Positions 24,014 to 26,235 of a stretch of 60,164 bases of DNA are shown piece by piece. The stretch comes from SAR86 cluster bacterium. Its GTDB lineage: Bacteria > Pseudomonadota > Gammaproteobacteria > Magnimaribacterales > TMED112. The stretch is taken from NCBI GenBank assembly GCA_003331605.1, contig QOPD01000008.1, positions 1-60,164 on the forward strand, in the 5' to 3' direction. The notes beneath the pieces are model-generated. The model searched no databases. It worked only from the letters and a program-made list of their open reading frames with translations, and was not told the DNA's origin. The position numbers and the translations under genes are program-made. The number at the start of each line of letters is the position of its first letter. Position 1 is the first letter of the stretch.

Positions 24014-24422
24014 AAAAAATAGAGCAAATAGAATTTATTTAATTTGTACATTTATATTTGCTGCTGTAGCTATTGTTTATTTTGTTTTGCAGGCTATGAA
24101 TAAAAACATTGATCTATATTTGACTCCAACACAGGCCAAATCAGGCCAGTATGAGATAGATGGCAGCTTTAAACTTGGGGGTATGGTTGCAATTGATTCT
24201 ATTGAGACTGGAAGTGAACTTGATGTGACCTTCGTTGTTACAGATTTTAAAAATTCAATGACTGTAAATTATTCTGGTGTTTTGCCAAGTTTGTTTAAAG
24301 AAAATAGTGGGGTAGTTGCTTCAGGTTTTTATGACCAAGATGCAGAGATTTTTGTTGCAGAGGAGATATTAGCTAAGCACGATGAGAATTATATGCCAAT
24401 AAAAATAGAGGTGGAAAATTAA
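24006..24422 (+). CDS. ccmE: Heme chaperone CcmE
   Basis: It carries heme covalently from CcmC to the CcmFH ligase. 138 residues with an N-terminal anchor helix (IYLICTFIFAAVAIVYFVL) and a periplasmic OB-fold. The heme-binding His125 and Tyr129 form the HxxxY motif in AKHDENYMP. It overlaps ccmD by eight bases; its TAA stop overlaps the proposed ATT start of ccmF. Confidence 0.97.
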   Translation: MIRKNRANRIYLICTFIFAAVAIVYFVLQAMNKNIDLYLTPTQAKSGQYEIDGSFKLGGMVAIDSIETGSELDVTFVVTDFKNSMTVNYSGVLPSLFKENSGVVASGFYDQDAEIFVAEEILAKHDENYMPIKIEVEN

Positions 24423-26235
24423 TATCAGCCCTGATGTCTTAGGCAATATTTTTTTAGGTCTAGCATTATTTTCTGCTTCACTTCAGATTATTGTTTCGTT
24501 AAAACAAAAAATACTACTCGCTAAAAATCTTAGCTATGCCACGTTTCTATTTCTTTTGGGTGGTGGTGTATACCTGTTATCCAAATTTTTGACCAATGAT
24601 TTTTCCTTTTTGTATGTAGCTCAAAATTCAAACGTATTATTACCAACCTTTTACAAAGTCTCAGCTTTCTGGTCGGCCCATGAGGGCTCATTCTATTTAA
24701 TGATTCTGCTCTTGAGTTTTGCAAGCTCTGTTGGTCTCTATATAAGTAAAGACCATGCTTTCACATCCTATGTCATAACATCACAAGGCATTATTGTTTT
24801 CACTTATTTGCTTTTCATGATTTTTGTATCAAGCCCATTTTTAAGGTTGGACTTTGCTCCAGCAAATGGAGCAGACCTTAACCCCTTGCTCCAAGACCCT
24901 TTACTGGCAATTCACCCTCCGATAATTTTTTCTGGCTATGTATTCTATGCTGTAACTTTTTGTTATGTCATTGCGGGTCTATTCAGTGGGTTTTCAAAAG
25001 AATTATTTCAGCATTTAAAGATATGGGCTGGCATTTCATGGTTTACATTATCTTTTGGCATATTGCTTGGTTCGATTTGGGCCTACTATGAGTTGGGTTG
25101 GGGTGGATATTGGTTCTGGGATCCTGTTGAGAATATCTCCCTTATGCCTTGGATAGCTGGGACTGCTTTGACCCACTCTTTAGTCTACAGTCGCGATAAG
25201 CTATTGCTTTCATGGATGGTATTTTTAGCAATCCTTACTTTTTTACTTTCAGTTTTTGGATCATTCATTGTACGCTCTGGAATCCTCAACAGCGTTCACA
25301 GTTTCGCAGCTGACCCCTCTAGAGGAATTTTCTTGCTTAGCATCTTTGCCTTATTCTCATTAATATCATTTGCACTCTTTATAAAAAACTTTACAAAAAT
25401 GGAATCTGCCTGGCCAAAAGTAGGCTCAAGAAATTATTTAGTGGTTCTCAATAACATCGTGTTATCTGGTATTTTATTGGTTGTATTTATTGGTACTTTG
25501 TACCCAATACTTACCGAAGTTATATTCAGACAAAAGCTTAGCATTGGTCCAGATTATTTCTCTCAGCTTATTTCACCCCTAGTGCTTGTTTTAATCGCAT
25601 TATTTACCTACGAGCAATTTATGAGTTTAAGTGTAAAAACAATTTTTAAGCTTAGCGGCTTGCTGGTTGTTTCAGCAACAGTGCTTTTTATAGTGTTGCC
25701 AGCAAACGTATACCTTAATCTCATTTTTTCTTTTGTATTTTTGGTAGTCTTGGCAATAAAAGCAATTTACGATTTCCAGCAAAGAGGAACCTTAATTCAA
25801 CCTCATAAGGTTTTAGGACATTTTTCAGTGGCTTTAATGACGCTAGCGATTATCTTTAACCATAATTTTTCAGAACGTGTTGATATTAGAATTTCTCCAG
25901 GAGATGAAATAAAAGTGATGAATGCTGACATTCAATTTGAAAGTATTGATATTGTGGCTGAACAAAATTTTGATTCTGTTAAAGCAAACTTTGTAGTTAA
26001 TGAAAATATTACTCTTACTCCTGAAAAAAGGATTTACAAAGTGGGAGGACAAATCACCTCGGAAACTGCTGTTAACTCTAATATTGTAAAAGATTACTTA
26101 ATTGTTCTTGGAGATAGGTTTGAGGATGGATCCTGGTCAGCAGCTTTTTCGATCAAGTACGGCATTCTTATAATATGGCTTTCAGCAGGTTTATTGCTTG
26201 TTTCTATGCTTTATGGAACGATAAGGAGAGCATGA
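24418..26235 (+). CDS. ccmF: Cytochrome c heme lyase subunit CcmF, probable ATT start
   Basis: The core of the heme ligase. From 24418 the product has 605 residues (about 647 in E. coli), many membrane helices and the motif WGGYWFWDPVENISLMPW. The first ATG/GTG/TTG in frame is TTG 24556, but starting there would remove the first helix and the conserved opening. Frame-open sequence upstream translates as NISPDVLGNIFLGLALF, matching the family opening of the type IPELGN. The only plausible initiator is ATT at 24418, six bases after GAGG and overlapping the ccmE stop (ATTAA). ATT starts are rare; infC is the classic example. It overlaps ccmG by four bases. Confidence 0.93.
   Translation: MNISPDVLGNIFLGLALFSASLQIIVSLKQKILLAKNLSYATFLFLLGGGVYLLSKFLTNDFSFLYVAQNSNVLLPTFYKVSAFWSAHEGSFYLMILLLSFASSVGLYISKDHAFTSYVITSQGIIVFTYLLFMIFVSSPFLRLDFAPANGADLNPLLQDPLLAIHPPIIFSGYVFYAVTFCYVIAGLFSGFSKELFQHLKIWAGISWFTLSFGILLGSIWAYYELGWGGYWFWDPVENISLMPWIAGTALTHSLVYSRDKLLLSWMVFLAILTFLLSVFGSFIVRSGILNSVHSFAADPSRGIFLLSIFALFSLISFALFIKNFTKMESAWPKVGSRNYLVVLNNIVLSGILLVVFIGTLYPILTEVIFRQKLSIGPDYFSQLISPLVLVLIALFTYEQFMSLSVKTIFKLSGLLVVSATVLFIVLPANVYLNLIFSFVFLVVLAIKAIYDFQQRGTLIQPHKVLGHFSVALMTLAIIFNHNFSERVDIRISPGDEIKVMNADIQFESIDIVAEQNFDSVKANFVVNENITLTPEKRIYKVGGQITSETAVNSNIVKDYLIVLGDRFEDGSWSAAFSIKYGILIIWLSAGLLLVSMLYGTIRRA

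Follow-up and report, generated by a model that had tools for sequence, protein, structure and literature searches.

In E. coli, pcnB is an example of an AUU start in a gene that does not encode an initiation factor, and it is not known to involve a stop/start overlap. The gene considered here, ccmF of a SAR86 cluster bacterium, shares with pcnB an apparent AUU start outside the initiation-factor genes; it is another gene in another lineage, and its start overlaps the stop codon of the gene before it. AUU, AUC and other non-canonical starts are already known (infC, pcnB, the GTC of sigR, and infC and rnhC of Listeria). The novelty lies in which genes are concerned, in the ATTAA junction of ccmF and in the fact that AUU is conserved as a codon across a family.

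Several described systems invite comparison. The AUU or AUC start of infC, on which IF3 autoregulation acts, is a conserved AUH start in an essential gene that gene finders have missed, and this is also its likeness to the present case (PMC5472188). The difference is that ccmF does not encode a translation factor and that infC itself starts with TTG in this genus. In Streptomyces, sigR has a conserved GTC start together with an extensive ribosome binding site (AGGAGGTG), and its repression by IF3 has been shown by experiment (PMC5472188). A conserved non-canonical start and an extensive binding site are found at ccmF as well, but there the codon is ATT. Fixed non-canonical starts in Listeria, in infC (ATT), rnhC (ATC) and four other genes, make up 6 of 2265 conserved genes (PMC13068326). 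Here too a small set of ATH-type starts seems to be fixed, although the genes are other ones and number about seven candidates among 784 compared. In a survey of 36 groups, a switch from AUG to AUU was found once among 61,358 reconstructed AUG starts (PMC5622118). Finally, genes with overlapping stop and start codons can be coupled by termination-reinitiation; the ccmE-ccmF pair shares with such pairs the one-base overlap and a Shine-Dalgarno (SD) element inside the upstream gene, while its start is ATT (ATTAA) instead of ATG and its coupling is presumed (PMC6728339).

Judged by its relatives, the bacterium belongs to TMED112, which is what GTDB calls the SAR86 family CHAB-I-7 (PMC11582366). 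Among the papers listed by our literature search on SAR86 and start codons, none contains SAR86, and the SAR86 comparison paper (PMC11582366) does not mention start codons. From the comparisons below, it is almost certain that ccmF in this family of ocean bacteria with small genomes starts at ATT, not ATG.

Anatomy of the ccmE-ccmF junction

The window, by which we mean the whole analyzed stretch of 60,164 nucleotides, is one contig (C10) of a 939 kb genome. It carries on its plus strand a ccm operon in the order ccmA-B-C-D-E-F-G-H, in which the ccmC/D, D/E and F/G junctions are stop/start overlaps too, with ATG starts. We identify the gene as ccmF because its product has both PF16327 and PF01578, while the preceding gene encodes CcmE and the following ones a thioredoxin-like CcmG and CcmH; the NCBIfam CcmF/NrfE model scores 427 bits, under its cut-off of 569.

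The 3′ end of ccmE, GAG GTG GAA AAT TAA, holds both a predicted SD element and a stop codon overlapping the ccmF start (Table 1). In the ccmF frame, the codons after the closing TAG are AGG TGG AAA ATT (24418) AAT ATC AGC CCT GAT GTC TTA GGC AAT. The original prediction had stated that no ATG, GTG, TTG or CTG occurs in this frame between the end of ccmE and TTG 24556, and that ATT 24418 lies six bases past GAGG and forms ATTAA with the ccmE stop. All of these sequence statements are correct, except that the SD match is longer than was given (GAGGTG, 6 nt, not GAGG). The frame is free of these four codons from the TAG (24406-24408) up to TTG 24556, which lies 46 codons into the protein. The 6 nt between GAGG (24408-24411) and ATT make a workable SD distance, and in the ATT genomes the one-base ATTAA overlap is the stop/start arrangement of a termination-reinitiation pair. 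Predicted local RNA structure around the ccmF start is nothing unusual (z -0.25). ATT 24418 is, as had been proposed, the most likely ccmF start, and the operon around it has several overlapping junctions.

Table 1. Positions of the features at the ccmE-ccmF junction, numbered along the window
Feature	Position	Strand	Evidence
ccmE, 138 aa	24006..24422	+	ORF list; Pfam PF03100 CcmE
TAG, in ccmF frame, shuts the frame upstream	24406..24408	+	sequence
GAGGTG, predicted Shine-Dalgarno element, within ccmE	24408..24413	+	-10.5 kcal/mol predicted pairing with 16S 3′ end; motif in 12 genus genomes
ATT, putative ccmF start codon	24418..24420	+	invariant in 12/12 genomes of the ATTAA junction type
TAA, ccmE stop	24420..24422	+	sequence; one base in common with the ATT start (ATTAA)
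ccmF CDS from ATT, 605 aa	24418..26235	+	Pfam PF16327 CcmF_C, PF01578; aligned to solved CcmF 6zmq
TTG, first canonical in-frame codon; rejected as start	24556..24558	+	missing in G011; not conserved elsewhere

Selection on the segment upstream of TTG 24556

Could translation begin at a codon other than ATT? TTG 24556 is the first canonical codon of the frame, and when the product is aligned to the solved CcmF 6zmq, the start methionine of the Thermus protein falls on ATC 24424, two codons downstream of ATT. Against TTG stands the evolution of the segment that such a start would skip. Codons 2-46 of the window genome (G000) and of its sister G011 (94% identical) differ at 9 bases, 6 of which are third positions (dN 0.020, dS 0.259; dN/dS about 0.08). 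On this comparison the 46 skipped residues evolve as protein, under purifying selection. The alignment with 6zmq begins at residue 6 of the open frame, and residues 7-29, numbered from ATT, form a hydrophobic stretch. The frame upstream of TTG encodes a conserved N-terminus, which the original prediction had described as the conserved first helix, and a start at TTG would remove this 6zmq-aligned segment. The TTG itself is missing in G011, and the first canonical codon is scattered in the other genomes. Translation from TTG 24556, which the original prediction had named as a case that would speak against ATT, is very unlikely by these comparisons. As for 24424, the codon there is ATC, ATA, ATT or ACC in relatives and stands 12 nt from GAGG; it was rejected because it is not conserved. 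We give initiation at either codon an outside chance at best.

Conservation of ATT and its Shine-Dalgarno element

The relatives of the window genome are SAR86 cluster bacteria, including the isolate TMED112-A1. GAGGTG-N4-ATTAA, followed by T or C, is common to 12 of the 17 genus genomes with a readable junction. Written as GAGGTGBNARATTAAYAY, the pattern occurs exactly once per genome, at ccmF, in 12 of 21 genus genomes, and its reversal has zero occurrences in the genus genomes; the motif is therefore above chance. Could the ATT nevertheless reflect a sequencing or assembly error by which a true ATG was lost? A one-base deletion from a hypothetical ATGATC could yield the observed AATATC, and the window derives from a draft genome. 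However, the ATT is common to twelve genomes, which come from MAG and single-cell projects, and these independent assemblies refute the explanation, whose probability we regard as negligible. The original prediction had also reserved the case that relatives carry ATG at the same place; when the codon was compared, the 12 ATT genomes did not.

In a codon-by-codon alignment of 11 genomes, ATT is invariant at the ccmF start. For comparison, single-codon columns account for 0 of the 12 invariant internal isoleucines and 7 of the 209 invariant residues other than methionine and tryptophan. By this measure AUU is kept as a codon, not merely as isoleucine, in ccmF (11/11) and likewise in rsmH (16/16) and pyrD (14/15). 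This codon-constraint test of single-codon columns was used in place of counting, over the whole genome, which codons follow SD-like sequences, a count in which AAA and AAT score as often as ATT. The count is not discriminating because SDs are sparse in the window genome (120 of 566 single-candidate canonical starts). The SD-forming codons of ccmE, GAG and GTG, are 2 of only 6 single-codon columns among the 61 invariant ccmE columns, GAA and other valine codons being commoner in these genes. Given that ATT overlaps the ccmE stop, some of its constraint could stem from ccmE; this is not the full explanation, because the last ccmE residue varies between Asn and Asp (AAT or GAT) while ATT stays.

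The same junction could in principle dispense with a separate ccmF start, if ribosomes shifted +1 at the end of ccmE to make a CcmE-CcmF fusion. GAGGTG lies three bases before the last sense codon, and the prfB frameshift site has an SD-like element at comparable spacing. But the tRNA on the last ccmE codon, AAT or GAT, would be expected to pair badly with ATT after the slip, TAA is a strong stop, and ATT is conserved in the same way in rsmH and pyrD, at sites that require no fusion. On these grounds we judge a frameshift fusion extremely improbable and return to initiation at ATT.

Five of the 17 readable junctions are not of the ATT type. Four have an ATG a few codons upstream of the aligned place (G005, G017) or directly before it: in G009 the ATG is immediately 5′ of ATT-AAT, and in G013 ATGATGGAAACA precedes the ATT-AAT place. 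The fifth, G014, has TTG or ATA. Two genomes with ATT offer alternative starts as well: G001 has an in-frame TTG four codons 5′ of ATT, and G008 has an ATG farther upstream. The predicted SD duplex energy, computed for four ATT genomes, is -9.5 to -11.5 kcal/mol there, compared with -0.1 to -2.9 kcal/mol in the four ATG genomes, which have hardly any SD; in G014 it is -9.1 kcal/mol. The anti-SD reads CACCTCCTTA in G018, and the anticodon stem of the initiator tRNA, an ordinary one, has three G-C pairs. Mapped onto the ccmF tree, ATT requires three changes, of which well-supported branches force at least two; it was therefore either gained once and lost again in places or gained more than once.

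Other likely ATT and ATC starts in the genus

Is ccmF alone? We compared the conserved genes of the whole window genome with those of an ATT relative (G018), which left 784 genes after filtering. Besides ccmF, six genes have conserved N-termini without a nearby canonical start: rsmH, pyrD, a hexapeptide-repeat transferase, a saccharopine-dehydrogenase-like gene, a DUF4399 gene and rimM. The likely start codon of all six in the window genome is ATT or ATC. For rsmH (G000:C4:72064) it is ATT in all 16 genus genomes where the gene was found, with a GGAG-type SD, and this ATT is aligned with ATG in other SAR86 families. For pyrD (G000:C11:14210-14212) 14 of 15 genus genomes have ATT and the remaining one has ATC, with an SD-like element in front; in three of them a TTG lies a few codons upstream. 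At the hexapeptide-repeat transferase (G000:C4:144295), nearly all genus genomes carry ATT, ATC or ATA after an AGGAG, and a genome of a sister family (G025:C1 about 381765) apparently has ATT. The choice of ATT is, as far as the conserved starts of rsmH and pyrD in the same family indicate, not specific to ccmF.

The likely start of rimM (G000:C4:160671), which overlaps the end of the upstream gene, is ATC, ATA or ATT in most genomes. Across the genus it has no fixed codon and no clear SD, and we therefore grade its non-canonical start as only probable. The saccharopine-dehydrogenase-like gene (G000:C1:211863; ATC) and the DUF4399 gene (G000:C7:42177; ATT) apparently have no canonical start in the window genome, and both have ATG in G018. 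Within the window, a 217 amino acid gene after an SMC-like gene (29297) has a TTG start, conserved in G018 as ATC TTG AAT CCT.

As a control we examined one third of the genome of G025. The numbers of flagged genes there (6 versus 5 and 10 versus 9) do not separate the groups, many of the flagged genes being shadow frames or alignment overhang. In the same genome, rnhB (G025:C1 about 231927) seemingly has no canonical start, and an ATT follows an AGGA there. Since the counts are similar and G025 has plausible ATT starts, we do not claim the trait as exclusive to TMED112; it may extend through SAR86, and we draw no sharp boundary.

infC, IF3 and start-codon discrimination

The start of infC is TTG in the genus and apparently ATA in several other SAR86 families. 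The IF3 of the genus carries substitutions at the positions that correspond to R116, R129 and, for the most part, R147 in E. coli. G014 keeps R147 and yet has ATT in both rsmH and pyrD, and the link between the IF3 substitutions and ATT starts is a correlation only. One infC sequence (G003:C19) is very unlike all others from the genus, and it may have entered the G003 assembly as contamination.

A broader idea may be put forward tentatively, at somewhat less than an even chance. Start-codon discrimination may be relaxed in TMED112 (CHAB-I-7) or in all SAR86, so that AUU and AUC form a standing class of starts in a number of core genes, with SD elements as compensation. TMED112 would then combine this with an IF3 that lacks residues kept in E. 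coli and the other SAR86 families, and with an infC that is no longer AUH-started.

Discussion

How might CcmF be made? Very probably, on the evidence of sequence conservation, its translation starts at AUU 24418, with a strong SD compensating the weak codon, and is probably coupled to ccmE termination. Ribosomes finishing ccmE would halt at UAA 24420-24422, one base into the ccmF start site, where GAGGUG in the last ccmE codons would hold the ribosome or the 30S subunit on the 16S rRNA tail. The strong SD would let initiation at the weak AUU succeed, presumably through the ordinary initiator tRNA charged with formyl-methionine, and ribosomes ending ccmE could re-initiate immediately. The family keeps this arrangement, and its translation system appears to tolerate AUU or AUC in unrelated genes, among them rsmH, pyrD, the hexapeptide-repeat transferase and probably others.

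The original prediction read the ATT differently, as a possible means of regulation that would hold CcmF at a low level or make it depend on IF3. In a Listeria reporter ATT is indeed weaker than ATG and ATA (PMC13068326). However, the SD at ccmF is strong and conserved codon by codon together with ATT, which indicates compensation at least as much as repression; unrelated genes have ATT too; and since infC starts with TTG in the genus, the classical AUU feedback is not evident. Nothing we found supports low CcmF output or IF3 dependence, and we consider the regulatory reading unlikely.

Because ATT is conserved with a strong SD and other core genes behave alike, standard gene finders probably misplace the starts of these genes. 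Gene callers restricted to ATG, GTG and TTG would truncate the proteins; for ccmF of the window this would cost the product its first predicted membrane helix. AUU has been thought a rare exception among start codons, and here a marine family appears to keep it in ccmF, rsmH and pyrD over a wide divergence (about 50-60% protein identity between species). The evolution of start-codon fidelity, and the question whether a strong SD is enough to make up for a weak codon, would thereby become directly testable in these bacteria.
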